Below, one piece after another: positions 25,422 to 64,000 of a stretch of 64,000 nt of DNA. The notes below the pieces were generated by a model. The model had not been told where the DNA came from. It did not search any database and saw nothing but the letters and a program-made list of their open reading frames with translations. The DNA lies in NCBI GenBank assembly GCA_025617745.1, contig CM046857.1, positions 30,181,514 to 30,245,513 of the forward strand. The letters are read 5' to 3'. The position numbers were made by a program, and so were the translations under genes. Numbering within the stretch: position 1 is the first letter of the stretch; the number at the start of each line of letters is the position of its first letter. Origin of the DNA: Heliocidaris erythrogramma. Taxonomy: Eukaryota; Echinodermata; Echinoidea; Camarodonta; Echinometridae.

Positions 25422-25527
25422 ATGTGTGTATGTAATTGGGTTTTTACAGACGTGTATCAATCAGATATCGTCAGATATGATTATTTACGTCTGGGACCGA
25501 CCTTTAACGTCACCATCCGAAAGACGT
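25422..25527 (-). repeat. Tail fragment shared with the SINE at 16879-17058
   Basis: On + it reads GTAATTGGGTTTTTACAGAC, CGTGTATCAATCAGATATC, then CCGACCTTTAACGTCACCAT, matching 16879-16970 in the same orientation. Similarity stops at GAAAGAC, right where the LINE-related sequence region begins. The 7SL-like head is absent. It is either a truncated SINE or a piece shared between SINE and LINE. Confidence 0.65.
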
Positions 25528-25571
25528 GTACTCTACTTACAATTTTTTATAGTAGAATACTGTTAGAATTC

Positions 25572-26889: not shown

Positions 26890-27577
26890 CATAGCTACAT
26901 TCCTATACTTCGTGTGTATAATTTAGGCAGTCATACACCTCAACTTTTTAAAACACCACTGCACAAAAGTCACAAACATTCACTCAAAATCGGCATTTAG
27001 TTTACAAAAACCGACAACAAAATATCCAAGAAATACAATAAATTCAACTCACCGATGTTGGAAAAGATATTTCCAAAAATCAAATCCGTAATTTACTGTT
27101 GATTCTCGCGAAACGAGCTATCGGAGTCATTGTGTACATTTCCTGGTCGCCGCGGGCGCTGACATCTCCCCAAAAGAGTTTTGTCCTTAAAAATTTGGTC
27201 CCTATGTGGCATACACGGAAAGTCACGATTTTCTGTGTGCGCGATCGTAAAGATCGATGTGCGCTTGCGATCCCGAGTTTCTTCGTGGACAAACATTTTA
27301 TTGGCCGATTTTAGTCTAAGACATCGGCAGTATGTAAACAACACGCGATCGCGAAACAAATCGGCGGGGATTTCTCCGGTTTTGGACAAGATTTTGACTT
27401 TGGATTTTGCTGAAAATATCAAAAGTTCTTCCTAACGGCCATTTGAGGTAGGAGTGAGATTTTTAAGGGCTGAATTTGAAAGCAAGGTATTTAAAATATT
27501 TATCTTATTTTCCCCCCATACCTTTAGTACATGCGACAGAAAATACCAACTATTTTACAGGAATGTACCCGGGAGTG
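26890..27577 (-). repeat. Unclassified CpG-rich repeat (A-B-C unit), inverted copy
   Basis: On the minus strand the order is A (about 149 bp, from CACTCCCGGGTACATT), B (about 390 bp, CpG-rich, GCGATCGCGTGTTGTTTACA) ending in a donor-like G|GTGAGTTGAAT, then C (TTGGGGTCGG... to TACACACGAAG). The same blocks occur at 53311-54697 and in part at 52199-52620. The open frame of B is broken here by indels near 27210-27235, so the protein is not conserved in this copy. It lies between NPRL3 and PTCD1. Confidence 0.8.
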
Positions 27578-40458: not shown

Positions 40459-41370
40459 CTATACCTTTGAAGTCCAGGTTTCAGAGCATCCATGGCTTAA
40501 ATGCAGGACCAAGGACAAGAAATTGGAGGGCTAAAAGTTCCATGAGACTGCAGTCTAACTTTCTGGCAAGATGAAGGGCAAGATGAAGGGTTTATGTCAA
40601 AAACTCTGATGATAAATTGTGCAGTTCTCTGAAAATGATGTTGTTGAACAAACTTTTGGGGATTATGTTCTACCTTTGAGTATATATCCACTAATTATAT
40701 GAATGTATGTTTTGTCTTCTTGGAACTATGATTTTTGTCAAACGTTTATGGAGTTCTTGATTGCAAGAAGGGATACAACAAAGTTTTGAGAGGTTTCTCT
40801 TAGTCCCAACTCCCCATGAAATAGAACTGTGTGGAGAAACCTTACAAGTCAGTACATATTTGTTTACTTTTCAGTTTAATGAATGAATTGTGGAAAACTG
40901 TATAGATGTTTGGAATTATTATACAGTTTTGACAATTATATTGTCAAAGATGAAACTCCAGTGCTTATGATATCTAGTTGGGTGCTTAAACATTTTTAAT
41001 ATACAAATATATTGTCTTTCATCACTTAAAAATCAATGAAAAGAAAGTTTTTTGTTTACCATTTCATTTTTTTTTCTCTTTGCGACTGTGAATCAAAAAT
41101 AATTGTGCAGTAATCGCAAAACTAGACATCCATATGCACAGGAAATCTGATAAACATAGCATTTTTATTTTGTAATTTGTATAAATTTGATTATGTCACA
41201 GGTCATTGATATGCATGGAGAGTATGCCATTTCAGGCACAGAAAATTATATAGAATCACCCTTTTTACCCATTTGCATGTTGTGAAGGCCGACTCCAAAA
41301 TGTTTTTTTCACTTGTTTACTCTCATTGCTGCTGAACTGTGCTCAATAAAATGAATCATGACACAAAAAG
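40459..41370 (+). other. PTCD1 3' UTR with a tandem copy of the coding end
   Basis: Bases about 40461-40560 repeat the preceding 100 bp, which encode the last part of PTCD1 (AGTCCAGGTCCCAGACCATC recurs as AGTCCAGGTTTCAGAGCATC; CATGAGACTGCAGTCTAACT recurs exactly). The period is exactly 100 bp. The copy lies after the stop codon and is diverged. AATAAA at 41345-41350 is the best polyadenylation signal. The end at about 41370 is an estimate. Confidence 0.7.
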
Positions 41371-42806: not shown

Positions 42807-45800
42807 TCAAAGTCCATTATCGAGTGGTAAGCATGTAGGACTATCCTTATAATCCCCTGCATCCTCCAGTACACCCCATGGAAGACACCTGAATGGATCA
42901 TTGGTAACATTCTGCCAAGAGACCAACTGCTTCTGAAGATTGACAAGAATGCCTTCGTACTTCCCCTCATAAGCAAGATTATTGACCTCTGTGGGGTCAG
43001 CCATGAGGTCAAAGAGCTCCCACTGGGGTCTGTAGTAGTAGTCTTTGAGCGTCTTGTACCAGTTCAAGGGTTGGTGATTCCTGGTCCTGTTCAAGATGTC
43101 CTGGAAGGTGTGCGAGATGAAGAAGTCTTGATCGATGGGAAATGGCATGGCAAAGTTGAGGTTGTGAATGAGCCTGTACTGCGTAGTCCTGATGACACGC
43201 TGAGGATAGAACATAGTGATCTCATGCAAGTCATGACTTGACAGACTCACATTCCATCCCACAGGTTCAGAGGTCAAAGCTGGCAGGAGGGACTTTCCCG
43301 TCAGTTGAACTGCTCCCTTGAAGATCTTATACCTGGGGTATTTGATGCCAAAGAAGTCCAGGACAGTGGGTGTGATATCCATGAGACTGATGAAAGAATC
43401 ACTGGTTTGACCCCATCGTCCTCGCTGGTAAGGAGATGACACCATGAAGGGTTCCCTAGACCCACACTCATAAAGGTTGGTGCGTCCACTGGTGAATGGG
43501 ATGCCGTTATCCGAGGTGTACATGATTAGGGTATCATCTAGGTATCCTGCTGCTTCTAGTTCTTTCATCATTAAACCAACACCTGATAGACAAAGTACAC
43601 AAAATTATTAGCATTCACATGTGCGCCCTGTATGCGCTCTGTATGTGCCCTGTATATGCGCTAGCAACACGCTGTGCATTCGTTGTTAACTCGCTAGCTT
43701 CTCCCAAATCCTGACAAAAGTTGGGTGCAAAACGACGCACTGATCTTATTTTCCATTTTTTAATTAATTTTCAGTGCACAGGCCGTGCATCGTGTATGTG
43801 TGACTGGGCCATAAAACTCTTTAACATTTTCCCAATATGTTTTATTACATGGAGAGGTCATGAGTTTCTTAAAACAATTTTAAATTGTATGGAATAAACA
43901 TTAATTGATGATTGTGCAGATTCATTTGTGAACTATAAGATATTTATCACTGACCCATAATTTGTATTTGTTATGACAACTTGTATAAATGAAACAAAAG
44001 TAGTTTTCAGAATACCGTCGCAGGCCTCTAAGTATCCAGAGGCCACAAGGCACTTTGCTGTGATGTCCAAGATGGTCCAACTCACTAACCATAGTACCTA
44101 CATGTATGGTCTTGATTTGAAGAGCTGAAGATTATTCTAACCATATTGCAAACATAGTTGTAATGGCTTTTGTCCACTTTTGTCTGGTCAAATGGCTGGC
44201 ACTAAAACTGATATTTGATTTTTTATTCAGGTACCATTCGACAACAGGAAAAAGAATACAAAAGTCAAATTGCTCAGAATTATTACACGATGCTACTCAT
44301 TGATATTAAATTATTAAAAAATAAGATTTTTGTTTTGTTTTAAATGCAATGCACAAAGCAATGTAAATGAAAAGGATGACAACCTAGTGATAGGGTGTAG
44401 GAGGGTCAAAACAGACAAAAATGAGAAAAATGAATACAAAGGATGAAAACAGAAATTAATGAATACACAGAGAGTGACAATCAAGTATAGACTTAAGTAT
44501 AAATGAGAGTTGAGACATGCAAGCACAATAGACCAAAGTGTATTAAGCAGAAGAAAAAGAGCAAACAGGATGATTGGATAAGTCAGGACAGAGAGATGAA
44601 ATTAAGAGAGAAAACCAAATACTACAGACCTTGATCAAGTCTGCTGACTGTTGTGTACTGTGCTGATATATCCTGTCTAGCTACTGGTGTGTCTTGGACA
44701 TGATAAGGTACTATCACATCCTTAGGATCATATCTGGCCGGTGTCCAGTCAGCTATGGTACCCATGTTAGGTTCACCGTTACCAAACTTTTCACAGAACT
44801 GACCAAACTCAGGGTGTGTGTGGCCACAGCGATGTGCATCATGGAAACCAATGTACAGGAAGAAAGGTCTGAAAATTAACAAAAATAGATAGACGTAATG
44901 ACAGTTGATAATCAGCAAATTTATATGTATTTTTGCACATGTTTATAAAGCATAACAAAAATAAGCAATAAAAGAATCTAAAATTTGTAAATGAAGACCA
45001 TTTCATGGTCATTTGTTCCTTTTATGATCTTACTTATAATTTGTACTATAATCACTGGGACAATATCATAGGTAAGACTTCAGCAAGTTTATTACTGGGC
45101 AAAAATTGATGGTAAATACGGACGTTAAAGTATAGAAACTATCGAAGGTACACACACTTTTTAGACACAGTTGTGTGCGAACTTGTGAAGCATACAAAAT
45201 CAACATGTATATCTACTCAATTAATATATATTTTCTACAATTGATCTCTTTTGTAATGAACCAACATTTTTATGTCTTATGTAAACCCTGGTGGAAGGTA
45301 CAACTGGCCCATCCCCTTTCAGACATCATCTAGCATTCCTTCAGTACTCAGAAAGAATCCCCCAAACCTATTACAGAATCTTGGTTTTGCCCCAGGTTAA
45401 AGCACAAATCCATGCAAATGTCTACCCCACAAGCTCAAACAAAGTATATTATACCTGTAACTCTTAGCCAACATACATGTACATCAATTAGGATAGAACT
45501 TTCTAGTTTTTTTCCCTCCAAATAAGTGTTGAAAGAGATTGCAACAATAATAGAAGTTACATTCACTTCATATAACAATGACACATCCATATCAATTTGA
45601 AATCTTTTAGGGGGAGATGTGGATAAAATCACTGCATTATGTGTGCTACATAGTACACAACATATGTAGGGCTTGTCTTAGCCCTGTACATCATTTACCT
45701 GGTATCATTACTCTGTAGGAATTCTCGGGCAAATTGTTTCATCAAAGTGATGTTCCTTCCAACCTGCATAATAGGATAGCCATCTTCTGGGGTCTTGGAG

Positions 45801-48800
45801 TAATCGAAAGGGTATACTGCTTCTGGGCCAACATGCTTCTTTCCAATGATTCCTGTGAAATACAACCATTAAAAAAAATAACTGCATTTTATCCTTCTTT
45901 GAATAATCAGGATTCTCTTCTACATTTCTTTTACTGATGATATCATACCCCGGTCACACCAACAAGACTTATACCATACCATAAAATTACACCAAAAGGC
46001 CAAGAATATATTGGTTCAAAGTCAGTCTGTGGTGAGTCTGTGGTGTGACTGAGGTATAACAATCCAAATGAAGATAGAGGTGACTCAGTTTTGAAACCAA
46101 TGAGAAATATATATTTTTATTGAAAATGAAATAATTTAAGCAACACTGAAAAATGCATGATTGGGACTTTAAAAAGAACGTGATTTATTTTAATATTATT
46201 TCCCCTTTAACCTTTGAGTTATACCAGCATGTTACATTTCTATGGAACACAGACCAATTGAAATGTGTGTTTTACGGGGGAAAAATGTTGTACTGAACAA
46301 CATTAAATGCCATTGTACTAATGTAGGTTTAAACCAACATTGGGTGATTTCACCTTCGGTGTTGGTGTTTGGTGTTAGTGTCTATTTATCTATATTTGAT
46401 CTAACACCGACTATGAAATGAGAAAAAAGTCAGCCGGTGTTAGGTGTTGATCTCTGATTTTTTGACGCAGTTCCGGTTGGCGGTGTTTATTTTTTGTTAA
46501 TAATCGTCTGCTGTACCAAGCTCGGCCGCCGGTGTTTAATTTCATGTACAAATTCCCATTCACTAACACTATACCCCTAGGGATTAAGAAATATCGATTT
46601 CACGGTCGGTGTTGGTGTTGGTGTTGCTAGCTGTGGAAAATTTTGCTGATTAGTCATGAGAAATAAAGACAGTAGGCGTCATTCGAAGTGTAATTTCATA
46701 GGTTCATATAGGCCTGAAATTAGATCTAGGCCAACATTTGGTCTAACGTTCGATCTAGAGCACACAGAAAGGAACTACTTTTGCTTTTTAAATGGGCTGA
46801 AGGAGTGAATAAAACATCCTACCTAATTTTCTTTTTAAGATAGATTTGATAAAAATGACATTAGATATTCCGTAGTTAAAGACCCAGAGAATCCACATCA
46901 TTTACTAGGATGAGATTTAAATCAATATTTACAATACAAAAGTCATGAAACTTCATGGCTAATCTGAGCCAATGCCTGAAATTTGGCTGTTTGCCCTGTA
47001 CGCACTACGCCGTCCGATCCGGCGTCTAGCTGCATTAGCTACCGTAGCACTTTCTGCTGCAAGTGAGAAACTCGAGAGAAATCATATCTAAACTTACTGT
47101 TCTTGTCAAGACTATCCATTTCTGTGAAGTTTCTTACCACACTCTAGATCAAATAATTATTTCTTTTAGAATTACCGGACTACTCGTGTAATTTAACGAT
47201 ATTCTAGACTAATAACTTAATAGTTTTAAATAATTTTTGTCCTTCGTTAAAAATGGTGCTGACGCCATTGCCAGTGTTAGGATATCTGTATCGGCTCCTT
47301 AATCTGAACAGCGGTGTTTGAGCTCGATTTTAGGATAATTTTCGCTCTAAACACCATCACCGAGCGTGAAATAACCCATTGTTTGCTTATTTCACCTTAC
47401 CACTTTTGTGTCAATGCTTGTTAACAGAATCATTTTATTCTCAGGGTTTGAAGCTTTCTGATAATATATAAATGTATTAAATTATGAAGAAAATGCATGA
47501 ATTTCTACTTTAAGCATAGAGTAAGCTGTTGCACTGATTGTACACAATGATGTGCTGAATGAGTGTGCCATGTAAAAGGTAATCAGATTATCCCTTCATA
47601 TTATTTCCCACAGAGTTCTATATCCTCCAATTATCACAGCTCACACCTTGTAAGCCAGAGTGCTTCTATAGACAAAAGGAGACACAGTGTTTCAACAAAC
47701 AAAAGTAACATCACACAGGGTTGGAGATTCTTTCTCTTATTTCACTGGGTTATGAACATCCAATTGTGATGAGTTATATATCGTTCTAAAGCTATAAAGA
47801 ATCTGCTCTTCTGGAATCAGAACTGATCATATCTAACAATTTACAGGTATTATTGGTTGTGGCTTAGGGTAATACAATCCTCTTATCAACTCTGACCCTT
47901 ACCTCTATTGTTTGGTGATTATTTTGTCCTCTTGCTTCTTTAATCTACCATCTACAAGATTTGTCAGCATGGTCCTTCTGTTAGATCTTTTCTCTGGACC
48001 TAAGCCTACTTTAGAAACTTTTATCAATATCTAAACTCTGTTCAGCAAATAGGACCTTATTCCATGACAGCCCATCGCCCCTATTACTCAAACTGTCTCA
48101 GAACTAGTAACTATCTCATCAAACACATATTTAACTAGATGAATCTTTGATCGCGCGCGGTCGGAATTTATGCCTCCGCCATCACCAGATTGGAAATGTA
48201 TGGCATACATGTACACTCTAAAAAGGATTGGTCCAACAAAATTACAAATCTTTTCACTTAAAAAGCACAGGAGACAGAAAAATCTATTTCATTTCATTTT
48301 CATCCCGTACAAATAAAAAACTTACCATTGATGACTTACAATCATCAAATACACCAAGGAAATAGATATTTTACGGCAAATAGACCACTGTCACCTTGAA
48401 ATTTCTGAAATAGGTAAGCCTAGACTCCATACATCACTTTGACCTTGAGACCCCAAGATCTAACCAGTTCACTGTCCCTCCCATATGAATACATTGGCCA
48501 AGTTAGAAGCTGATCCGCCAAACGGTTGCTAGGTTATCACAAGAACGACCCATTTTTATGTATATAATGGCCTCTATGACCTTTGAACTTTGACCTTGAG
48601 ACCCTAAAATCTAATCCGTTCATCGTCCCTCACATATGCATACATGGGCCAAGTTAGAGGTTGATCCGTCAAACAGTTCTTCAGTTATCGCAAGAAATAA
48701 CCATTTTTATGTACATAATTACGTCTGTGACCTTTGACCTTTGACCTTGAGACCCCAAGATCTAACCAGTTCACTGTCCCTCCCATATGAATACATTGGC

Positions 48801-51800
48801 CAAGTTAGAAGCTGATCCGCCAAACGGTTGCTAGGTTATCACAAGAACGACCCATTTTTATGTATATAATGACCTCTATGACCTTTGAACTTTGACCTTG
48901 AGACCGTAAAATCTAATCAGTTCATCGTCCCTCCCATATGCATACATGGGCCAAGTTAGAAGCTGATCCGTCAAACAGTTCTGAAGTTATTGCGAGAACG
49001 AACCATTTTTATGTACATAATGACCTCTGTGACCTTTGACCTTTGACCTTGAGACCCCAAAATCTAATCAGTTCATTGTCCCTCCCATATGCATACATGG
49101 GCCAAGTTACAAACTGATAAAAAAAAAACGGTTTTGAAGTTATCGCGAGAACGAAAAGGGGACGGACGGACGACCCGAAAACATAATGCCTCCGGCACCA
49201 CCTACGGTGGGCAGAGGCATAAAAATACATACTTGGGCAAACAAGCAGTCAAAAATTTTAAATTTAAATATTAATGAAGGTTTCGAGTTATTGACCTTGT
49301 GGGCCACTCTTGTGTATTTTTATATCAAATAACAATCGAGTCTCACAAAGCATCTAGTCAGAATAAGCACACATCACAATGCCATTCAATGCACACCATT
49401 TACATTCATGTTTGTTTCAGAAAAGAATCTACATGAACAGTGTATTTATGGGAAGATAAGGATGAATACATGTATTAATTTGTCAAATACAAAATCATTA
49501 TTATGTCCTACAAATTGGCAATCTTTTGCTGCAGTATGTATCATTTACACAGGGACAATGTACAGATACAATTTACATATCTATCTATTGTTTTCTTAGA
49601 GTTAAATAAAGGGAAAAAAACATTCTTTCTAACTTGAAGACAGGATAATGCCATTTTAAAAACAGTTTTTCCTGGATAAACTAAATCCCTGAAATCTAAA
49701 TCTCCATGAATCACTGACCTGTACGCACTCCCGCTTGGCCCAGGAGCAGAGGCAAGCTTCTGACTTCATCGAATGACGTGAAATGATGGTAGCCATTGAG
49801 TAGTCCATACATTCCATTCTGATGCTGGGGTAGTCCCGTCATGATGACAGAGCGACTTGGTGAACAGCTGCTGACAGAGGTATAGGCATGCTTGAAGACC
49901 AGACTTCGCTTGCCCAATGCATCTAGGTGAGGAGTCTTGACAACAGAGTTGTTGTATACTCCCATCTCAAACCCACCATCATCAGCTATAAAAGAGAGGT
50001 ATTATAGTATCAGCATAGTAAGTTATTGACTTGAAAAGATTATCATCTTCATTACCATCATCATCATCATCATCACAATCATCACCATCACAATCATCAC
50101 AATCGTCATAATCATCATAATCATCATCCTCATTGTCATCATCACTGTCATCGTTATCATCATCAATCATCGTTTTCACTATCAATTATCCTCATCTTCA
50201 TCATAATCTTCATCATCATCATCATCATTGTCATCATCATTATTGTCCTCATCATCACCATCAGGCATCACTACCATCGTCACTATCAGTCATCATCACT
50301 CAAGAAACTCATCATCATTGTCATCACACATTCAGTCATCATTCTCATCATCACCTTCATCATGCACCATCATCCTTGATCATTGTCATCATCACCATCA
50401 ACAGACAACATCATATATCACCATCATCCTCATCATCATCACTTAAAGGACAAGTAACCCCACGTGATATTCTAGATGCACCTATTGTCTGCTACGTCTT
50501 TCCATGGAGGCTGCCATTTTGTGCATGACACGGATCATTAGGTACCATATGCATTGATAATAGCCTACCTTTACAACAGATACGTCGCTTTGTTCTGATT
50601 GTATTACGATTGTTATTGGCCATGGGCCTAGATAATTGACGACCCATGAGTTCTAATAGCCATCCTGTAAAGCAGATTCCTCGCTTTGTTTTGGTATTGT
50701 TACGATTGTCTCCGTCCTTGACGTCAATTCTCCGTCCTTGACGTATATTTTTTATGAAGTATATTTTTTATGAACAAATTAAGACCTTTTAAAAAATATA
50801 TAAAACTAAACTTACATTTCAGAATATGTGACTTTATCTAATATATATTTGTCCTCTAAAAATCAATTACAAGTTAACGATGAAGGAAATTTTACTTGGG
50901 ATGAAAAATATGTTCGTGTACACATAAAGTAATGGCAGCCCCCTTATTATTGCTAGCAGACGATAACTTGGCTGGAAAATAGTGATTTATATCTATATCC
51001 TGTGTTTTTACATGAAATTGCATGTATCAAATAAGAGGCATATACTACACCATTCAAAATAAGCTAATTCATACGCTGAGGTTAATTTCCCTTTAATATC
51101 ACCATCAATAAACATGATCATCACCACCATCATGCACCATCATCACCAACAACATCATCACCATGCCTACTCCTAATTACCGTGCCCCTTGGACCCTGGG
51201 GGTCGTTTCATCAAATCAACTCCATGACAGTCATAACTCTTGTCGGTGATCTACAGAAATGTCATGGACTTGAAAAACTTTTTCACGAAGACATAATAAA
51301 CGACGACTCATCAGCTAAAAACCATAGTCTATATCACAGTCCATTGGATTTCTTGTCAATTACCCAAACAGACTTTGAGGCTCAGTTGTCCTTAAACTGT
51401 TCCATAATGTAAAAAATGGCAGCGAAAATTAATACTGATGATACAAACATCTTGTTTACATGAAAAGATGTGTTACTTATGGCATCTTAGAATTTATGAA
51501 ATTGAGAAAACTCAAGGATGCTTTTGTGATGTTCGAATCTACACTTGTAAATAAGAGGATACCGTAATTGACTAATTATGGAAAGAAGACCCAAATCGTG
51601 TACACTTTAGATAAAATTATTAAATTAAGATATCTTACGACCCAATTCTTAACATTCATTTTTAAATAATACATTTAATATCATTGATATCAAAGCATTG
51701 CATGAAAAGGGAAAAATATAACAAAAATGCATACATGATAAATTGTCATCGATTACATTGATCTGTATACAGACTGTTCCGTTTTCGACGCTTTTTCTAT

Positions 51801-52900
51801 GGTAAACCGATGTGGGTGTTTTTAATATTAATCTCATTTACTTGTTTGGGGGTCAAGAAGTCATAAGAACATATTGTCCGTCTGTAAAATATTATGATAA
51901 AAAGATTATTAAAACTATTTGATTTAAGAGAATAAAAGGAATGTGTTGGAGATCAGGAAATAAATTTTCTCTTTACTTACATTTTTTATTTTTTCGCAGC
52001 CCATAGACTAACTAAAAAGCTGGCTTGTGATGGCGTTCTAAAAAGATATGACAGGTTTGGAGTACCGACAAGTCACTTGTCAGGGAAGTTGTCAATGATC
52101 TTTGGCTTTGTGAAACAGTTCTAAGCGGACATGTTGAGCGAGAGCGTCGAGATGTCACTGATCTTGTCGTTATGACGGTTTGATGAAACGACCCCCAGGA
52201 AATGTACACAATGACTACGATAGCTAGTTACGCGAGAATCGACAGGAAATTACAGATTTCATATTGTTTGGAATTATCTTTTCCAGCAGTCATCGGTGAG
52301 TTGAATTTATTGTATTTCTTGGTCTTGGATATGTTGGGGTCGGTTTTTGTAAATTAAATGCCGATTTTGAGTGAATGTTGGTGACTTTGGCTATACAATA
52401 GCGTTTATTCCGTTGAAAATTATCAGAATTTCAATAATAAAAACACAAGAAACTTGACCAAATATTCACTTGGTCAGGCGGATTTAATGGTGGCTGGGCA
52501 TAACGACTTTGGCTGTGACTTTTTGTTTTGTCATGTTCGTGCAGTGGTGTTTGAAAGAGTTGAGGTGTATGACTGCCTAGATTCTACACACGAAGTATAG
52601 TCATGTAGGCCTAGCTATATGAGTGGTGTGCCCCAACTTAACTCTCGATGCTGGAGCTGGAAGGCTCGTGCCTTGGCTAGCGGTTCGGTGTGAAACCCTA
52701 CCCCAGTGCTCCGGCGGGGTACTTTACCGGGCAGCTGCAAACACACTTATTTCATTTGTGACTTTTTGTGTCTTTCTGTCTTTATTTCAAATCTTTCAAA
52801 GTAAAATATACTTACCAACGAGGACAAGGACATTTTTTCCTGATGTCAAGCCACTCTGAAGCGAGAGCAGTAGCAGAAACCAATTAAACATGGATTTCAT
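42807..52900 (-). CDS. SGSH: N-sulfoglucosamine sulfohydrolase (heparan N-sulfatase, sulfamidase)
   Basis: Five coding exons in transcript order: 52900-52816, 49985-49719, 45852-45699, 44868-44630, 43582-42807. They give 506 aa (human 502) with phases 1, 1, 2, 1. The enzyme removes N-linked sulfate from glucosamine during lysosomal heparan sulfate breakdown; loss causes Sanfilippo A disease in humans. Seen: a signal peptide ([20 protein letters not shown]), metal-binding D30-D31 in VLVADDGGFE, the sulfatase motif SSCSPSRS with C69 as the residue converted to formylglycine (human C70), [11 protein letters not shown] (K123/H124), [32 protein letters not shown] (D273, N274), [17 protein letters not shown] and [16 protein letters not shown]. 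All expected catalytic residues are present, so it should be active. It is divergent from RSL1D1. Confidence 0.97.
43583..44629. other. SGSH intron 4, no supported feature
   Basis: AT-rich. The segment 43620-43810 has GTGCGCCCTGTATGCGCTCT-type repeats and TGTGTGACTGGGCC, suggesting an old repeat, but its ends are unclear. Confidence 0.35.
44869..45698. other. SGSH intron 3, no supported feature
   Basis: AT-rich intronic sequence without recognisable repeats or coding similarity. Confidence 0.4.
45945..46057. repeat. 113-bp MITE in SGSH intron 2
   Basis: ATACCCCGGTCACACCA at the left is inverted at the right as TGGTGTGACTGAGGTAT. No coding content. Confidence 0.6.
46339..47380. mobile_element. 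1-kb element with 42-bp-scale inverted ends and GGTGTT repeats
   Basis: Left end ATTGGGTGATTTCACCTTCG, continuing GTGTTGGTGTTT, is inverted at the right as AAACACCATCACCGAGCGTG, continuing AAATAACCCATT. Clusters of GGTGTT (46357-46380, 46434-46450, 46480-46530, 46605-46625) resemble subterminal binding repeats of a transposase. No coding frame is present. The family is not identified. Confidence 0.65.
47397..47515. repeat. Single arm of the 42521-42786 MITE
   Basis: TTTTGTGTCAATGCTTGTTA, AGAATCATTTTATTCTCAGG and ATGAATTTCTACTTTAAG match the right arm of the MITE at 42676-42786. The left arm is absent; the 46339-47380 element lies where it would be, so insertion may have separated or replaced it. 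The rest to 48168 shows nothing I can name. Confidence 0.6.
48169..49221. repeat. TATGCCTCCGCC element, long copy with five to six tandem units
   Basis: Starts TATGCCTCCGCCATCACCAG and ends CCTACGGTGGGCAGAGGCATA. Units of about 180-240 bp repeat GTGACCTTTGACCTTTGACC, CCAAGTTAGAAGCTGATCCG and AACCATTTTTATGTACATAA. TGACCTTTGACCTTTGACCT occurs near 48728 and 49030, giving overlapping DR1 motifs in each. It lies in SGSH intron 2. Confidence 0.75.
50040..50442. repeat. (ATC)n/(CATCAT)n microsatellite in SGSH intron 1
   Basis: About 400 bp of imperfect CAT/TCA trinucleotides, continuing at 51097-51175 after an inserted element. It explains the spurious His/Ser and Asp-rich frames on the two strands. 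Confidence 0.85.
50443..51096. repeat. 650-bp inverted-repeat element inserted in the ATC microsatellite
   Basis: Ends TTAAAGGACAAGTAACC and GGTTAATTTCCCTTTAA are roughly inverted, and trinucleotide repeats continue on both sides. No coding frame. It shares the TTAAAGG end style of the other foldback MITEs here. Confidence 0.55.
51196..52198. mobile_element. 1-kb element with CTGGGGGTCGTTTCATCAAA ends
   Basis: Left end CTGGGGGTCGTTTCATCAAA (51196) is the exact inverse of the right end TTTGATGAAACGACCCCCAG (ending 52198). Subterminal TGACAGTCATAACTCTTGTC and GATCTTGTCGTTATGACGG also pair loosely. No transposase frame is seen. The small MITE at 27939-28035 has related ends. Confidence 0.75.
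52199..52620 (+). repeat. Unclassified A-B-C repeat, partial copy (end of B plus C)
   Basis: It starts GAAATGTACACAATGACTAC, matching the end of block B at 53895, keeps the donor-like CG|GTGAGTTGAATTTATTG, then block C (GGGGTCGGTTTTTGTAAATT, ACACACGAAGTATAG). It is more diverged than the 53-54 kb copies. The left part is cut off where the 51196-52198 element begins. Confidence 0.7.
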
Positions 52901-53095
52901 GATAATACGGTAGGATACCATACCAAACATGCCTAGGCCTATATGTTGTTGCGCGATAAGCTATCCGTCATATCATGTCCGTGCGATCGAATCAAGCTCA
53001 ACGTTGAGGGCCTTTTATCCACACGTGTGTGCAAAATTGAAGATTATTTTGAAGACTATTATTTAACTCAAGCTTTACCTTGATTATCTGACAGA
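52901..53095. promoter_or_regulatory. Compact divergent promoter of SGSH and RSL1D1
   Basis: Only 195 bp separate the SGSH ATG (minus, 52900) from the RSL1D1 ATG (plus, 53096). The interval is moderately CpG-containing (TTGCGCGATAAGC, GTGCGATCGAATC). It contains an extended palindromic E-box, ACACGTGT, with CACGTG at 53022-53027. Both genes must start within or very near it unless upstream non-coding exons exist. CACGTG is the core bound by MYC/MAX and MiT/TFE factors; use here is inferred. Confidence 0.7.
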
Positions 53096-55112
53096 ATGGA
53101 TAGAACAATTGACCAATCAATAAAGAGGGAAAAGGTGAGTTAGATCAGCTACAAAGTTTGCTTTACACAAAGTTACATGTAGAAATCAGACGACATAATT
53201 TAAGTTAAATGAGTTTGTGTGGTCCCATGCAGAGGTATTCATGTGCCATAATTCTGAGTTAGAGCAGATAACCCATGTATGCAATGTATGTAGTGCGTGG
53301 TGAGTAGTGACACTCCCGGGTACATTTCTGTAAAATAGTTGGTATTTTCTGTCGCATGTACTAAAGGTATGGGGGGGAAAATAAGATAAATATTTTAAAT
53401 ACTTGCTTTCAAATTCAGCCCTTAAAAATCTCACTCCTACCTCAAATGGCCGTTAGGAACACTCCCGGGTACATTTCTGTAAAATAGTTGGTATTTTCTG
53501 TCGCATGTACTAAAGGTATGGGGGGGAAAATAAGATAAATATTTTAAATACTTGCTTTCAAATTCAGCCCTTAAAAATCTCACTCCTACCTCAAATGGCC
53601 GTTAGGAAGAACTTTTGATATTTACAGCAAAATCCAAAGTCAAAATCTTGTCCAAAACCGGAGAAATCCCCGCCGATTTGTTTCGCGATCGCGTGTTGTT
53701 TACAAACTGCCGATGTCTTAGACTAAAATCGGCCAATATAATTTTTGTCCACGAAGAAACTCGGGATCGCAAGGGCACATCGATCTTTACGATCGCGCAC
53801 ACAGAAAATCGGAACTTTTCCGTGTACGCCATAGGGACCGAATTTTTGAGGACAAAACTCTTTTGGGGAGATGTCAGCGCCCGCGGCGACCAGGAAATGT
53901 ACACAATGACTCCGATAGCTCGTTTCGCGAGAATCAACAGTAAATTGCGGATTTCATTTTTGGAAATATCTTTTCCAACATTGGTGAGTTGAATTTATTG
54001 TATTTCTTGGATATTTTGGGGTCGGTTTTTGAAAATTAAATGCCGATTTTGAGTGAATATTGGTGACTTTTGTGCAGTGGTGTTTTAAAAAGATGAGGTG
54101 TATGACTGCCTACATTATACACACGAAGTATAGGAATGTACCTATGAGTGGTTAGGAAGAACTTTTGATATTTACAGCAAAATCCAAAGTCAAAATCTTG
54201 TCCAAAACCGGAGAAATCCCCGCCGATTTGTTTCGCGATCGCGTGTTGTTTACAAACTGCCGATGTCTTAGACTAAAATCGGCCAATATAATTTTTGTCC
54301 ACGAAGAAACTCGGGATCGCAAGCGCACATCGATCTTTACGATCGCGCACACAGAAAATCGGAACTTTTCCGTGTACGCCATAGGGACCGAATTTTTGAG
54401 GACAAAACTCTTTTGGGGAGATGTCAGCGCCCGCGGCGACCAGGAAATGTACACAATGACTCCGATAGCTCGTTTCGCGAGAATCAACAGTAAATTGCGG
54501 ATTTCATTTTTGGAAATATCTTTTCCAACATTGGTGAGTTGAATTTATTGTATTTCTTGGATATTTTGGGGTCGGTTTTTGAAAATTAAATGCCGATTTT
54601 GAGTGAATATTGGTGACTTTTGTGCAGTGGTGTTTTAAAAAGATGAGGTGTATGACTGCCTACATTATACACACGAAGTATAGGAATGTACCTATGAGTG
54701 AGTAGTGACTAGCTGTTAGAGGTCAATTCCACAGTAACGGAAGGACAATCACACACAAACTGTATCTAAATGTCCTTCCATTACCGTGGAATTAACCTAG
54801 ACTAGATTATGAGGATTGGGATCAGGGGAGCCGGTGGGCATGTGCATGATGTGGGGGGAGGGGGGAGGGGAGGGGGAATGCGTGCAGCCATGAAGCCCCC
54901 CATTGAAACTTTCTGTCACCAAATTTGGGAAAGACTTCCATATGTACCCTCCACTAAAATTGTCCCAAATTACAGCTCTAGCTTACATTCTAAAAGAGGG
55001 CGATTTTTTGATGGGGGTTGAGTAAAAAATGGGGCCTGGAAATTTTTGGGGGGCTATTATAAAAGAAAAAGAAAAAAAAAAAAAAAAAAAAAGAATTCTT
55101 TCTCTGTGTGTG

Positions 55113-55156
<44 letters not shown>

Positions 55157-57229
55157 TCTCTCCATCCCCATTTGACCTCTCGTACTCGTAGATGCCTAAG
55201 ACAAACCTAAACATTGAGATATTGGGAGAAAGGGTTAAGAACATAAACAAGTCATAGACATATTTTTGAAGTACGATCGTGATTTGAACCCTCAACAATA
55301 TAACAAAGTACATGTATACAACATAATACATCGAGCGTTACCAATGACCCACAAGAGATGCGGATGGTTGAGGAGGTCTGTATGACTCTTATAGATACGA
55401 TTAACTTGCGCATGCGCAAAAGGCCAAAATGAAACAAATCTCGTCAAACTCGACTCGTACTCAACCAATTCGACCAACTCGCCCATCGACCACTACAGTA
55501 TGTGGTGTATATTCGAACATGCTAGAAACAAGCATATGACACTTGTAAACATGTAATGCCTGTAAGAAGACAATGTAAAGTTGTCTACAGGCCATCAATC
55601 TCTACCCATCGATCTCGCGTGGATATAGCATCGTATGCATGGCTCTATGCGAGCTACACAACCAAAATTAGGAACCCTACACTCAAACACAGTACGTGGG
55701 ACACCTTCTGCTGTATACATTCCAGTGTATTGTTTGTACATGTACTCCTTCATATGCAAAAGATACATGATTTGATTTTTTTATTTTAAAAAAGTCAATA
55801 TAATCTAATGATTTGTCACATTAAATCACCTTTAAAATTTGTAAGGATAAACATTTTTTGCCTGTTTGTGCAGTTAATTTGTGGAAAAGACTTCACAGTG
55901 CTGAATTATTTGATTCTAAAAATGCATTAAAAAATTGTATTGGAACGTAGAGGGCGTTGCTTTATCCACTGGTAGATATAGAGATCAACGGTACCAGCGC
56001 GATCAGTTGTTGTATATATTTTATTGTTTCCTATCCGCATGATGTCACTTTGCAGTGACCATACATATACGTAACATGTTGAGGATACTTGTTGTATCAA
56101 CAAAGGTTCCTGGGGAAAAGGCAGTGAAAGAGGGCTGTAAATGTAATGGGCCTTTCTACCGTTTTGATCTAAAAAGCTATCAACATAAATCTATAGAGAC
56201 TTAAACTTAAGTATCCAACCCTCGCAGTAAGCCCTTGGAAGGGCAAGGCAAATTTTGAAGGGCACATGAGAAATTGCCTTGGATTTTGTTACAAAATAAA
56301 GGGCACCTAGGAAATTCTCTGATTTTTTAAGGGCACCTAGGCAATTTTCAAAATTTGAGAAGGGCACCAAGGCAACTCTCAAAATCTGTGAAAAAGTAGA
56401 CTTTACATGTTCGATATCGCAGCGACATGTCCAGACCATCGATGCTCCAGACCATTATCACTGATCTCTATGCGTGCGTACATGATATCCGATTGATGTG
56501 AAAAGGATGGAACAGAAATGAAGGAAGAAAATAATTTTAAAAAGGCAAATAGCAAATAAAAGAAAGGGAAAGTATGATGAGAAGCAGAAATAGAAACAAT
56601 AAAAGGAAGATAAAAAGAAGAGCATAGATCAAAAGTTAATAGAAGAAAGCTAATCAAAAGAGGGACTATTTGATATGAGAGAACTAAAGAAAAAATGAGA
56701 AGGAATAAGAGAAGGAAATGAAGGAACAGAAGAATGACAATGGAATGAGAATAGAAGATTAACTGAGAAAAACAAATATCAAAATAAGGAGAATCAGAAT
56801 ATGATCATGACATAAGAATATTAAGAAAATAAGTAGAAAGAGTAGGACATTTGAAAATCCATCCATTTTTGTCTGCTCAGATGTTTGATAGCTTCATGAT
56901 ATGAATAATGCTGTAAGAGCATTGGCACTTGTAATATATCAGTACCTCCTAATCAATATTTGAACCAAACCTATGCGATATGCCTAAGAACTGAAAAGTA
57001 CATTACCTGCATAAATGATTAAATGAGCTGATTTTGATTATTTTGGTAATGATGACCTTGAAATGTTTGATTTTGGCTGTGTTTAGGTGAAGGAGGCAGC
57101 GACTGCTCTCATTGCATATCACAAGACACAGAAAGATGCTAACGAGATGCTTTTTGGAGAACCTCTTAAGGTCCAGCTACAACTCTCAGTCTGGAAGATC
57201 ACAACTAAGAAGAGTAGCACACATAAAAT
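53096..57229 (+). CDS. RSL1D1: Ribosomal L1 domain-containing protein 1 (first two coding exons only)
   Basis: Exon 1 is 53096-53134 (13 codons, donor AAG|GTGAGT); exon 2 is 57087-57229 (acceptor GTGTTTAG, donor AT|GTAAGT, phase 2). The 60 or so residues read MDRTIDQSIKREK, VKEAATALIAYHKTQKDANE, MLFGEPLKVQLQLSVWKI and TTKKSSTHKM. This matches the N-terminal part of RSL1D1/cellular senescence-inhibited protein, where a helix with ALL.H.K precedes an FLMV.LWKIP strand. The protein is nucleolar and acts in ribosome biogenesis. The rest of the L1 domain must lie beyond 64000, so the second intron exceeds 6.7 kb. Exon 2's end is duplicated in the downstream minisatellite. Identification rests on a short segment, but the motif order is good. 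Confidence 0.75.
53311..54697 (+). repeat. A-A-B-C-B-C array of an unclassified CpG-rich repeat
   Basis: Block A (about 149 bp, starts CACTCCCGGGTACATTTCTG) is repeated at 53311 and 53460. Then B plus C (550 bp) is repeated at about 53603 and 54153. The two BC copies appear to differ at only one or a few bases (AAGGGC versus AAGCGC near 53779/54329), so the duplication is recent. Block B is CpG-rich and open on both strands (125 aa on +, starting MIFTAKSKVKILSKTGEIPA; 111 aa on -). B ends at a donor-like TTG|GTGAGT. The array lies in RSL1D1 intron 1; inverted and partial copies are at 26890-27577 and 52199-52620. Confidence 0.85.
54719..54798. repeat. 80-bp palindromic MITE
   Basis: GAGGTCAATTCCACAGTAAC, continuing GGAAGGACA, pairs with TGTCCTTCCATTACCGTGGA, continuing ATTAACCT. 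No coding content. Confidence 0.75.
55063..55160. repeat. Poly-A and (TC)n microsatellite
   Basis: An A-rich run (55063-55092) is followed by TCTCTCTC repeats to about 55160. It explains the spurious Arg/Glu-repeat frame on the minus strand. The flanks 54799-55062 and 55161-55845 hold nothing I recognise. Confidence 0.85.
55846..55950 (+). pseudogene. LINE reverse-transcriptase C-terminal end fragment
   Basis: In one frame it reads DKHFLPVCAVNLWKRLHSAE, then LFDSKNALKNCIGT and a stop. The pattern (V.AVNLWN.LP..., then F+..L+) is typical of the extreme C-terminus of CR1/Jockey-type LINE proteins. Only 35 codons remain, with upstream sequence unrecognisable. Confidence 0.45.
56235..56390. repeat. 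Short tandem repeat of AAGGGCACCTAGGCAATTTT type
   Basis: Four imperfect units of about 35-45 bp, each with GGGCAC, AGG or AAGG, and CAATTTTC/GAAATTC variants. The surrounding intron 1 sequence (55951-57086) is AT-rich, with a GA-rich tract at 56500-56830, and shows no gene apart from exon 2. Confidence 0.65.
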
Positions 57230-60200
57230 GTAAGTAGAGTGATACCTTCATGTGAAGACTGCTCAACTAAGAAGAGTAGCACACATAGAATGTAAGTAGA
57301 GTGATACCTTCATGTGAAGACTGCTCAACTAAGAAGAGTAGCACACATAGAATGTAAGTATGGTCATACCTTCATGTGAAGACTGCTCAACTAAGAAGAG
57401 TAGCACACATAGAATGTAAGTAGAGTGATACCTTCATGTGAAGACTGCTCAACTAAGAAGAGTAGCACACATAAAATGTAAGTAGAGTGAATCCTTCATG
57501 TGAAGACTGCTCAACTAAGAAGAGTAGCACACATAGAATGTAAGTAGAGTGATAACTTCATACATGTGAAGACTGCTCAACTAAGAAGAGTAGCACACAT
57601 AGAATGTAAGTAGAGTGATAACTTCATACATGTGAAGACTGCTCAACTAAGAAGAGTAGCACACATAGAATGTAAGTAGAATGATAACTTCATACATGTG
57701 AAGACTGCTCAACTAAGAAGAGTAGCACACATAGAATGTAAGTAGAGTGATACCTTCATGTGAAGACTGCTCAACTAAGAAGAGTAGCACACATAAAATG
57801 TAAGTAGAGTGAATCCTTCATGTGAAGACTGCTCAACTAAGAAGAGTAGCACACATAGAATGTAAGTAGAGTGATAACTTCATACATGTGAAGACTGCTC
57901 AACTAAGAAGAGTAGCACACATAGAATGTAAGTAGAGTGATAACTTCATACATGTGAAGACTGCTCAACTAAGAAGACTAGCACACATAGAATGTAAGTA
58001 GAATGATAACTTCATACATGTGAAGACTGCTCAACTAAGAAGAGTAGCACACATAGAATGTAAGTAGAGTGATACCTTCATGTGAAGACTGCTCAACTAA
58101 GAAGAGTAGCACACATAGAATGTAAGTAGAGTGATACCTTCATGTGAAGACTGCTCAACTAAGAAGAGTAGCACACATAGAATGTAAGTAGAGTGATACC
58201 TTCATGTGAAGACTGCTCAACTAAGAAGAGTAGCACACATAAAATGTAAGTAGAGTGATACCTTCATGTGAAGACTGCTCAACTAAGAAGAGTAGCACAC
58301 ATAGAATGTAAGTAGAGTGATACCTTCATGTGAAGACTGCTCAACTAAGAAGAGTAGCACACATAGAATGTAAGTATGGTCATACCTTCATGTGAAGACT
58401 GCTCAACTAAGAAGAGTAGCACACATAGAATGTAAGTAGAGTGATACCTTCATGTGAAGACTGCTCAACTAAGAAGAGTAGCACACATAAAATGTAAGTA
58501 GAGTGAATCCTTCATGTGAAGACTGCTCAACTAAGAAGAGTAGCACACATAGAATGTAAGTAGAGTGATAACTTCATACATGTGAAGACTGCTCAACTAA
58601 GAAGAGTAGCACACATAGAATGTAAGTAGAGTGATAACTTCATACATGTGAAGACTGCTCAACTAAGAAGAGTAGCACACATAGAATGTAAGTAGAATGA
58701 TAACTTCATACATGTGAAGACTGCTCAACTAAGAAGAGTAGCACACATAGAATGTAAGTAGAGTGATACCTTCATGTGAAGACTGCTCAACTAAGAAGAG
58801 TAGCACACATAAAATGTAAGTAGAGTGAATCCTTCATGTGAAGACTGCTCAACTAAGAAGAGTAGCACACATAGAATGTAAGTAGAGTGATAACTTCATA
58901 CATGTGAAGACTGCTCAACTAAGAAGAGTAGCACACATAGAATGTAAGTAGAGTGATAACTTCATACATGTGAAGACTGCTCAACTAAGAAGACTAGCAC
59001 ACATAGAATGTAAGTAGAATGATAACTTCATACATGTGAAGACTGCTCAACTAAGAAGAGTAGCACACATAGAATGTAAGTAGAGTGATACCTTCATGTG
59101 AAGACTGCTCAACTAAGAAGAGTAGCACACATAGAATGTAAGTAGAGTGATACCTTCATGTGAAGACTGCTCAACTAAGAAGAGTAGCACACATAGAATG
59201 TAAGTAGAGTGATACCTTCATGTGAAGACTGCTCAACTAAGAAGAGTAGCACATATAAAATGTAAGTAGAGTGATACCTTCATGTGAAGACTGCTCAACT
59301 AAGAAGAGTAGCACACATAAAATGTAAGTAGAGTGATACCTTCATGTGAAGACTGCTCAACTAAGAAGAGTAGCACACATAGAATGTAAGTAGAGTGATA
59401 ACTTCATACATGTGAAGACTGCTCAACTAAGAAGAGTAGCACACATAGAATGTAAGTAGAGTGATACCTTCATGTGAAGACTGCTCAACTAAGAAGAGTA
59501 GCACACATAGAATGTAAGTAGAGTGATACCTTCATGTGAAGACTGCTCAACTAAGAAGAGTAGCACACATAGAATGTAAGTAGAGTGATAACTTCATACA
59601 TGTGAAGACTGCTCAACTAAGAAGAGTAGCACACATAGAATGTAAGTAGAGTGATAACTTCATACATGTGAAGACTGCTCAACTAAGAAGAGTAGCACAC
59701 ATAGAATGTAAGTAGAGTGATACCTTCATGTGAAGACTGCTCAACTAAGAAGAGTAGCACACATAGAATGTAAGTAGAATGATAACTTCATACATGTGAA
59801 GACTGCTCAACTAAGAAGAGTAGCACACATAAAATGTAAGTAGAGTGATACCTTCATGTGAAGACTGCTCAACTAAGAAGAGTAGCACACATAGAATGTA
59901 AGTAGAGTGATACCTTCATGAGAAGACTGCTCAACTAAGAAGAGTAGCACACATAGAATGTAAGTAGAGTGATAACTTCATACATGTGAAGACTGCTCAA
60001 CTAAGAAGAGTAGCACACATAGAATGTAAGTAGGGTGATACCTCCATGTGAAGACTGCTCAACTAAGAAGAGTAGCACACATAGAATGTAAGTAGAATGA
60101 TAACTTCATACATGTGAAGACTGCTCAACTAAGAAGAGTAGCACACATAGAATGTAAGTAGAGTGATACCTTCATGTGAAGACTGCTCAACTAAGAAGAG

Positions 60201-60624
60201 TAGCACACATAGAATGTAAGTACAGTGATACCTTCATGTGAAGACTGCTCAACTAAGAAGAGTAGCACACATAAAATGTAAGTACAGTGATACCTTCATG
60301 TGAAGACTGCTCAACTAAGAAGAGTAGCACACATAGAATGTAAGTACAGTGATACCTTCATGTGAAGACTGCTCAACTAAGAAGAGTAGCACACATAGAA
60401 TGTAAGTAGAGTGATACCTTCATGTGAAGACTGCTCAACTAAGAAGAGTAGCACACATAGAATGTAAGTAGAGTGATACCTTCATGTGAAGACTGCTCAA
60501 CTAAGAAGAGTAGCACACATAAAATGTAAGTAGAGTGATACCTTCATGTGAAGACTGCTCAACTAAGAAGAGTAGCACACATAAAATGTAAGTAGAGTGA
60601 TACCTTAATGTGAAGACTGCTCAA
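57203..60624 (+). repeat. 54-unit minisatellite made of RSL1D1 exon-2 end, splice donor and intron start
   Basis: Units are 62 bp or 66 bp (the latter with an extra CATA in CTTCATACATGTGAAG). Each contains AACTAAGAAGAGTAGCACAC, then ATARAATGTAAGTAGAGTGA and the end TGTGAAGACTGCTC. The first unit overlaps the last 27 bases of RSL1D1 exon 2, and its ATGTAAGT holds the exon's own 5' splice site. I counted 54 unit starts at 57203, 57265, 57327 ... 60499, 60561. The first 32 units form two copies of a 16-unit, 1016-bp block (10 short plus 6 long), shown by the marker variants TATGGTCAT (57355 and 58371 region) and AAGACTAGC (57974 and 58990 region). In the exon frame every unit reads into ATG TAA, so only the first donor preserves the frame. 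Confidence 0.97.
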
Positions 60625-60679
60625 GGGAAACGAGAAATGGTTTCTGTACATAGGCAGTTTGTCTTTACGTACAGGTTCC

Positions 60680-61278
60680 TTAAAGGCCAAGTCCACCCTA
60701 ATATCAAGTTGATTTGAATAAATAGAGTAAAATTAAACAAGCGTAACAGTGAAAATTTCACTGAAATTGGATGTAAAATTAGAAAGTTACGGCATTTTGA
60801 AGTTTTGCATTATTTCATGAAACAGTGATATGCATAACATGGGCGGTATGCAAATGAGTGAACCGATGATGTCATGCACTCACTTTTCCTTATGTATTTT
60901 ATTATATGAAATATCATATATTTCATTTTTTTGCTTCAATAATGTAAAACATGGTTTGACTCCACATGGAACATGTAAAATCATCATTATTGTAACTTAT
61001 TTTCATACAAGGAAGGGATTCTTTATTATCACATCTATAAAAATTGAAATATTTGAAATTTCATATAAGGAAAAGTGAGTGTGTGACATCATCGGTTCAC
61101 TCATTTGCATACCGCCCATGCTATGCATATCACTGTTTCATGAAATAATGCAAAACTTAAAAATGCTGTAACTTTCTTATTTTACATCCGCTTTTAGTGA
61201 AATTTTCACTGTTACGCTTGTTTAATTTTACTCTATTTATTCAAATCAAATTGATATTAGGGTAGACTTGGCCTTTAA
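60680..61278. repeat. 600-bp foldback MITE
   Basis: Left arm from TTAAAGGCCAAGTCCACCCT; right arm ends AGGGTAGACTTGGCCTTTAA. The arms are long and well matched (AAATTTTCACTGTTACGCTT against AAGCGTAACAGTGAAAATTT; ATTTGCATACCGCCCATG against CATGGGCGGTATGCAAAT). It begins 56 bp after the minisatellite. The AATATCAAGTTGATTTGAAT interior is a style seen in other repeats here. Confidence 0.9.
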
Positions 61279-61575
61279 GTTCATTTAGTACACTCAGATA
61301 CTGTACAATGTACATGTAGCCTACAAGGTAAACGAAAACAGTGGTCTTTATAGACCTGTGGTCTTTTTTTTTCTTTTCAGTTTGTTGCTAAATAAAGCAG
61401 GTTTGACTGACCGTTGTAGATAGTTAGAACGCTTTGGAGTGCAGGATGTTTTGTGTCAAGCATTTCAGCCCAGTCATTTTCAAAAGAGTGAATGCATACC
61501 AGAATATGAAGAATATAAAGAAAAAAAAGAGAAATATAAATAAACTAGACATTTAATTCGTCATGAGGACGAATT
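61279..61575. other. Spacer with a splice-acceptor look-alike
   Basis: TCTTTTTTTTTCTTTTCAG ends at about 61380 and would be a strong acceptor. The sequence after it reads only about 14 codons to a stop from RSL1D1 exon 2's phase and does not resemble RSL1D1. No feature is called. Confidence 0.4.
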
Positions 61576-62437
61576 AGGTGGTCTGTCATTTGATCTTGAT
61601 AATTTTGATCTTGATAATGTGAAAGATGACGTTGATATCACGATGACATTAATTATAATGAATCTAATCAAGATTTTTATGATTTCAGCCTTTTCCTAGC
61701 ATTTTCAATTCGTAGGCTCTAGCTACTACATTATTAGTGAAATAGCGCCCCCTTTCTTTCAATGGGGCATAAAGTGTGTGAACATGAATTTTGGATGATT
61801 CGTGGATATCATGACAATGATGATGATAATGATGTTGATGATAATCATCATCATCATCATGAATATCTTCATGACAGTAATGATAATGATGTTGATAATA
61901 ATGATCAATTTATATCATCATGACAGTGATACTGATAATGATGTTGATGATAATGATAATGGTGATGACCATGACTGAAATGACATTGACCTTAGCCATG
62001 CCAAATATGAAAGAGAGATGACATTTCGTGAAGAAGATACGATCATTAGTTGATTTGTAGAAAATGGCGCCTGGATGACGTCACAATAATCTGATGACCT
62101 TGAAAAAGATGCTGGAACTTGACCTTATTAGGACTGATGACTGACAAAAATTTGAAGATAAATGACTAAGCCAATTTTGAGAAATAATAGGAAATAAAAA
62201 AAAATATAGGACTATGTGATATTGCAGGATACTTGGAGATAAATCCCATAGCTCTAGTACACGACAGGGAATCACAATTTCCATAGGGTTGTACACAAAC
62301 TACTGCACACTACTTTCTAATAGACATAACACGGAAAATAAGGCAGTTTATTGCATGGTTTGTGATTGTTTATGTTATAATCGTCGAAGAGGATGGTAAA
62401 ATGACAGGCAAAAAGAAGCAAAAAAAAAAATTTTTTA

Positions 62438-62505
62438 TGGACCCACCGGGGATCGAACCTGGGTCACCGGAATGGGAGTCAAGTGCTTTGACCAATATAC
62501 CAAAA
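62438..62505 (-). pseudogene. Degenerate tRNA-like sequence (Gly-CCC type)
   Basis: On the minus strand it has a D-arm-like TATTGGTCAAAGCA, an anticodon-loop-like CTCCCAT (CCC), a T-arm with GGTTCGATCC and a 3' acceptor half TGGGTCCA. The 5' acceptor half does not pair with it, and the anticodon and T stems each carry a mismatch, so a functional tRNA is unlikely. It may be the promoter head of a SINE captured in the 61576-63763 element. Confidence 0.5.
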
Positions 62506-63269
62506 TATTTCCCATAGAGATAACACGTAAACGAAAAACGGGATTCTCAAATCACATTTTGGAGTTTAAAATTGACAATGATCCCGACGTCAGATTGAAA
62601 AAACCGAACCCTCATAGAAAGAGTATTTATCAGGCTACAACATATTAAAATCTGGAAGGAAATAGACCAAAAATAACTGAGATACTGCTCAGAGAACGAT
62701 GTCATGTAGATTCATGATTCGAAAAAAAATCATCTTCCATAGACATAACACGCAAATAGGGGAAATTCTGACATGTCGTTTTTAATTGAATGACGTCATC
62801 AAAATGAAAAACCGTCACTAATCTTGTAGAGAATTGTCTCAGCTATAACATATCAAAATTTGGAAGAAAATCGAGCACTTATTACTGAAATATTATCAAA
62901 TGAATACAAAAATGATGACGTCATTTTTTTCAAAATTATATTTTTGAGTTCATATGCAAATATGATGACGTCAGAACATGCGATAAGCAAAGATTATGCA
63001 TGAATTCAAATCTACAACTCACAGGCTTTCAGAATACGTAAAGAAATTTGGGGGTATCAGTGCATTCTGAGGAGCTATGGCGAATTCTAGATAGGCATGC
63101 TTTCCCCACTTTTTACATGAGAATGCCCATTGACGCGCGCACGAATTTGAAAGTTTGACGTGCGCGTGTGGCAATATGGAAGGTCGAGAATGACTGTAAA
63201 TAGTTGGAAATTGTCAAGAATAGTGTCAGGAAGACAAATCATGCGAAAAAACGGCGTTTTTTCGTTATG

Positions 63270-63311
63270 TACGCGCTGCGCGCGCACATAACGCGCGCGC
63301 GGACGCGCACG
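63270..63311. repeat. CGCG-rich alternating purine-pyrimidine block
   Basis: TACGCGCTGCGCGCGCACATAACGCGCGCGCGG-type sequence with near-perfect CG/CA alternation; a second block lies at 63395-63435. CpG density is far above the AT-rich surroundings. The remainder to 64000 holds no recognised gene. Confidence 0.7.
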
Positions 63312-64000
63312 GATGGAAAAATTTTAAATGCTTAAAATGTCCTGAACCGTACTCTAATTTGATTAAAAAGTGATTTGGAGCATTTCTAAATTTTGACGCG
63401 CGCGTACGTGCGCGTCATGATGCGTGCGCGGATTTTGATGACATTTTATGTTGACCCTTGACCTGAAGTTTATGTGTGTCAAATATGGTTTATTTTTGAT
63501 GACTCGTTATGAAGATATGATTGATAATGTGATTTCACAAAATGGCGCCTGGATGACGTCACGATGACCTGATGACCTTGATAATGATTTTTGAGCTTGA
63601 TCTTATAGGACCTGATGACTGACGGAAATGTCATGAAAATTGACCGTACAGTTTTTGAGATTTGGTGGAAACAAGAAAATGACGGAAAAATAAAAATAAA
63701 GAAATAAATAATAAAGAAAATTCTGACGAAATTAAGAGGTGATCTGTCAATGACAGACCACCTAAATATAAAGAATACTAAGGGCAGTTCTCCCAACAAG
63801 AGTAGCGGCAATAATTGCCGATACCAAGACAATATTTGACTTTCATAACTTCTTACAAACTCGCTTCAGTCCTTCTAAACCACCCCTGCTGCAAGTCCAA
63901 ATTTCAGTAACTTTAGACCAAGAGTAAACAAATTCCTGTAAGGAAGACTTGTATTGAAGTATATGATAACTTATGACTGATATAGAATGTATGTTTTTGT

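Follow-up and report, generated by a model that had tools for sequence, protein, structure and literature searches.

The window, a 64,000-nt stretch of the genome of the sea urchin Heliocidaris erythrogramma, carries the first part of the RSL1D1 gene on its plus strand, and a minisatellite (57202..60624, +) lies across the junction between exon 2 and intron 2 of this gene. Coding exon 2 (57087..57229, +, 143 nt) has the acceptor TTTAG/GTGAAG and the donor AAAAT/GTAAGTAG, and it joins in frame to exon 3. Exon 3 lies in the flanking chromosome just outside the window (64008-64146, with window coordinates continued past 64000 for exons 3-6), followed by exon 4 (66183-66331), exon 5 (67465-67566), and the start of exon 6 (69648), which was taken to 69860 for the joined model. 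We searched ATG-to-donor candidates over 45000-57000 for exon 1 and propose the best-scoring in-phase candidate as coding exon 1 (MDRTIDQSIKREK, 53096..53134, +, donor AAG/GTGAGTTA). It joins in frame and the match to human RSL1D1 begins at its residue 7; it is the least certain exon of the model. These coordinates give lengths of 3952 nt for intron 1 and 6778 nt for intron 2.

Joined together, exons 1-5 and the start of exon 6 give an open frame of 261 residues with GT/AG borders. The model matches the Pfam domain Ribosomal_L1 (PF00687, E 4.8e-43), and its best solved relative is human RSL1D1 (8fkp_SL, E 3.1e-51), with an alignment that runs across the exon 2/exon 3 junction. The best cytosolic uL1 chain scored far more weakly (E 8.7e-13), so that the gene combines a Ribosomal_L1 domain with a higher score for RSL1D1 than for RPL10A. 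Exon 2 alone (48 aa) had no Pfam or PDB match at E <= 1, so its support comes from the joined model; the in-frame join to exon 3 and the human alignment over that junction agree with the exon and the donor (57229/57230) given in the original prediction, and support the phase of the exon.

When the whole genome was searched for Ribosomal_L1 domains, seven candidates were scored and four matches returned. Two are RSL1D1 exons (4 and 6 by position), and the other two lie on contig C21, where they read like uL1/RPL10A when named by eye; one of these matches contains a TAG. The search, which also missed exons 2, 3, and 5 of RSL1D1 itself, showed no second RSL1D1. A literature search for papers naming both RSL1D1 and sea urchin found none.

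Several other features were recorded around the gene. Pfam matched six of eight neighbouring ORFs (1104-3053, 25353-26726, 33557-34567, 42810-50001), with a methylpurine-DNA glycosylase gene, a reverse transcriptase, and a pentatricopeptide-repeat gene on the plus strand and a sulfatase/SGSH-type gene on the minus strand. A 100-bp unit in 1.9 copies (40370-40560) overlaps the end of the ORF at 40174-40458 and may be another tandem duplication where a coding stretch ends. Proposed intron 1 of RSL1D1 holds two near-identical repeat copies (53602-53994 and 54152-54544), which have a further relative at about 27042-27435, and 53310-53608 is a 149-bp tandem pair with a 100 per cent match. Elsewhere in the assembly, the small contigs C26 and C25 look bacterial by eye, with one ORF resembling a sensor kinase, and may be contamination. 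Contig C24 (12905 bases, of which the first 10000 were examined) is mitochondrial, with an ORF we take to be cox1 from its motif and open under the echinoderm code; it is shorter than the usual sea urchin mitochondrial genome of about 15.7 kb.

TRF describes the minisatellite at 57202-60624 as having a period of 62, 54.0 copies, and a score of 5778. When cut at CAACTAAG, the array consists of fifty-four head-to-tail units, thirty-six of 62 nt and eighteen of 66 nt, the longer ones carrying an ATAC insertion. The last unit is counted as 62 nt and finishes at 60621; it is followed by CAA (60622-60624), the start triplet of a unit. There are thirteen sequence variants among the units, in the order CAFADBBEADBBGAAACAFADBBEADBBGAAAICBAABBAECJBKEAHLHAACM. 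Units 1-16 (57202..58217, +) are identical to units 17-32 (58218..59233, +), 1016 bp without one difference.

The last 28 nt of exon 2 form the beginning of unit 1, and every one of the fifty-four units holds these 28 nt together with the donor and the start of intron 2. The donor AAT/GTAAGTA is invariant in 54/54 units, as is AATGTAAGTA. Outside the array, on the plus strand of the window, there are no occurrences of ATGTAAGTA and seven of GTAAGT. TRF, the unit split, and the gene model thus agree on what had been predicted, a minisatellite of the exon-2/intron-2 junction that starts within RSL1D1 exon 2, and all fifty-four predicted copies of the 5' splice site are intact.

The donors had also been described as near consensus. 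This stands for the intron side, which matches the consensus perfectly; on the exon side, the final base is T rather than G. Pairing energies with the 5' end of U1 (11 bases) are -7.0 kcal/mol for forty-nine of the fifty-four array donors, -6.8 for three, and -7.3 for two. The other four RSL1D1 donors that were scored pair at -8.3 to -11.8, making the array donor the weakest of the five, and 84 of the 3038 GTs at 1-57000 pair with U1 at least as well. On a position score built on human donor frequencies, the array donor reaches 86.9, compared to 85.3-96.0 for the other four. By the same human-frequency score, 15 of 3038 GTs at 1-57000 reach 86.9, compared to 54 of 261 in the array. The array donor is an ordinary donor and not a very strong one.

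We extended exon 2 to each of the fifty-four donors in turn, joined it to exon 3, and translated the result. Only the first GTAAGT (57230..57235, +) keeps the frame open. Each of donors 2-54 (53/53) instead yields 48 codons and then a stop at one shared TAA, which overlaps donor 1. This is the TAA of the ATG TAA that later donors had been predicted to retain; the prediction that the first donor alone preserves the protein frame holds as well. If donor 2 is used, 58 nt (205 - 147) separate the end of the stop codon from the junction, which would be sufficient for nonsense-mediated decay (NMD) under the 50-55 nt rule.

The ends of the array point to how it may have arisen. Its left end reads ATCACAACTAAG (exon) and its right end ACTGCTCAAGGG (intron), and unit-unit junctions read ACTGCTCAACTAAG, that is, intron ACTGCTCAA followed by exon CTAAG. 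Each of the thirteen variants opens with CAACTAAG and has ACTGCT at its end. Because CAA is present at both parent ends and the unit junctions fit, we infer that the array would have started as a single tandem duplication of the exon-2/intron-2 junction between an exon CAA (ATCA-CAA-CTAAG) and an intron CAA 62 bp further on (GCT-CAA-GGG). Later growth would have come from slippage and unequal exchange, including one duplication of a 16-unit block. The sequence of the array suggests a young expansion that began with one such event. In a genome search with a two-unit query (129 bases), all of the matches among those listed (at least 23) fell inside the array, which argues that it was made locally, and we rejected a dispersed satellite on these grounds.

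Substitutions affect thirteen of the sixty-two columns shared by all units, and none of the thirteen is among the ten donor columns (P = 0.076); that stretch was chosen post hoc and some columns co-vary, and we rejected this pattern as evidence of selection. The donors show no clear sign of selection, and their invariance is not significant (P about 0.08). RNA folding compared to shuffled sequences was unremarkable in 4/4 cases (two single units, a double unit, and the first exon-intron unit; z from -0.43 to -1.19), and no known RNA family reached its gathering score at 52000-64000. A fold-back (inverted-repeat) element in intron 2 (60679..61279, no strand assigned) begins 55 nt past the array; its 215-nt arms (60679-60893 and 61065-61279) are 95 per cent complementary and 171 nt apart. 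That this element is linked to the instability or expansion of the array is a guess.

Minisatellites that multiply a splice donor occur in two human genes, CBS and IFI6 (also 6-16 or G1P3). The IFI6 unit is 12 nt, in about 26 copies, and a 2001 study by Lievers is said to be the original work on CBS repeat copy number and activity. Like these repeats, the RSL1D1 array is made of tandem units of tens of bp, each of which (54/54) contains the exon end, the donor, and the start of the host intron. It has more copies and a longer unit than the CBS repeat and, by the figures just given, than that of IFI6. The CBS repeat is a 31-bp VNTR, c.1444_1467+7(16_21), with 16-21 copies (PMC2630376); as we read this notation, the unit is 24 nt of exon plus 7 nt of intron, so that the donor is multiplied. 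It lies at the exon 13/intron 13 boundary and is termed non-coding, and lower enzyme activity has been reported with more units (both in PMC5188458). The RSL1D1 array shares with it a unit that spans the exon end and intron start, with the donor in tandem, but differs in unit length (62/66 bp), in copy number (54), and in belonging to an unrelated gene. Both polymorphism and function have been studied for the CBS VNTR, whereas the RSL1D1 array is known from the sequence of one assembly. The IFI6 minisatellite provides multiple splice donors, and two downstream repeat units serve as donors to give three mRNA species (PMC4526556, citing Turri et al. 1995). The RSL1D1 minisatellite likewise multiplies its donor, but the IFI6 unit is short and its extra donors can keep the frame, unlike the 62/66-bp units here, which bring an immediate stop. 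A third case, human CBS 844ins68, is a single tandem duplication at intron 7/exon 8 in which the more distal site is favoured (PMC2630376); that source calls the site a 'donor', although the site at an intron/exon border would normally be an acceptor. It resembles our array as a short tandem duplication that multiplies a splice site at a junction, but ours has many copies and is at an exon-2/intron-2 junction. The RSL1D1 array is therefore of the same kind as the CBS VNTR and IFI6 repeats, in another gene and another phylum, and its structure is not new.

Which donor would the cell use? The published general answer is proximity across the exon under exon definition, derived from human data. 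With introns 1 and 2 this long, exon 2 should be recognised by exon definition. Unit 1 is the real exon end, and the acceptor at 57086/57087 would pair across the exon with the nearest donor, donor 1, leaving the donors downstream to act as U1 decoys. We would expect donor 1 to be dominant, with some leak to donors 2 and 3, and occasional use of these and later donors would give RNAs with the stop at the same codon, open to removal by NMD. Since the genuine end of the exon lies in unit 1, the array would be tolerated; it probably has no purpose and slightly lowers RSL1D1 output.

The data of PMC9225289 bear on this. Near-equal donors in long-intron settings favour the upstream donor, which was the sole one used in five minigenes that carried a pair of identical donors; natural near-equal events show a majority, not exclusive, use of it, and events unmatched for donor strength prefer the downstream donor in about 60 per cent. 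The minigene donors were CAG/guaagu, and when both were weakened the larger exons were mostly skipped. Against the donor-1 account, the minigene donors are stronger than the array donor, which is the weakest of the five in its own gene by U1 pairing. It also counts against the account that the exon-definition rule comes from human data and that CBS 844ins68 favours the more distal site. Passages of PMC8724738, on U1 competition, do not decide donor choice in the array. We also considered acceptors inside the array and rejected them: by a simple pyrimidine count there is no strong one. Only 5 of the 451 AGs in units 2-54 have at least 11 pyrimidines in the 20 upstream bases (a further 98 reach 10), the five real RSL1D1 acceptors have 11-13, and 1155 of 3185 AGs at 1-57000 have at least 11, so the array is poorer than its surroundings.

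A junction-duplication minisatellite, tolerated as donor 1 is used and with a small cost to RSL1D1, is the explanation we consider best and hold with good confidence. The array, the gene model, the frames, the CAA at either end, and the identical blocks can be read from the sequence; we infer the duplication history, the use of donor 1, the leakage, NMD, and near-neutrality. This account already allows for a small cost, and so is compatible with a doubtful but not negligible extension in which copy number acts as a dial, setting the leak to later donors and lowering or tuning RSL1D1 output among individuals. All fifty-three extra donors give the same stop, that of donor 2 is 58 nt away from the junction and so would satisfy the 50-55 nt rule for NMD, and the CBS VNTR is reported to have lower activity with more units (PMC5188458). 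The exon-proximity rule, as drawn from PMC9225289, instead predicts little leak to far donors, in which case copies past the first few would hardly matter. The original prediction also raised a role in U1 titration or protection from premature polyadenylation, and for this we found no support. There are fifty-four U1-type sites within 3.4 kb, and a platform shielding the 6.8-kb intron from premature cleavage and polyadenylation, or a local U1 sink, could be imagined from that density. However, the intronic array contains no AATAAA/ATTAAA signals, proposed intron 1 has eight in 3.95 kb without such an array, and the donors lack a clear selection signal. The eleven signals that intron 2 has 3' of the array leave room for a U1 effect there, but we consider such a platform very improbable.

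Two further readings question the locus itself. The identity of units 1-16 and 17-32 could reflect a recent block duplication or an assembly error, and if the array length or the exact 1016-bp repeat were an artefact, the true array would be shorter or longer. We think this unlikely: the order of variants in units 33-54 is absent from units 1-32, so a large part of the array cannot have come from a looped copy, and the array sits in a 52 Mb contig. Least probable of all, to the point that we give it almost no weight, is that the locus is a decaying copy whose function the array has already blocked. Use of any later donor would indeed bring a stop, but the five joined exons and the start of the sixth stay open with GT/AG borders, and no second RSL1D1 was found among the four Ribosomal_L1 matches, in a search that, as noted, also missed exons 2, 3, and 5.

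The array is a natural counterpart of the minigenes with two identical donors, offering fifty-four near-identical donors in steps of 62-66 nt behind one acceptor. RNA from this locus would show how donor use changes over the full series of exon lengths. A comparison of alleles would bear on whether extra copies lower expression, as has been claimed for the CBS repeat. It is a tentative and rather improbable thought that donor copy number tunes RSL1D1 dosage, and hence ribosome assembly, from one individual to the next. If so, each unit would add one decoy U1 site and one NMD isoform with the same stop, and fifty-four equal donors behind a single acceptor would amount to a natural assay of donor choice against distance.
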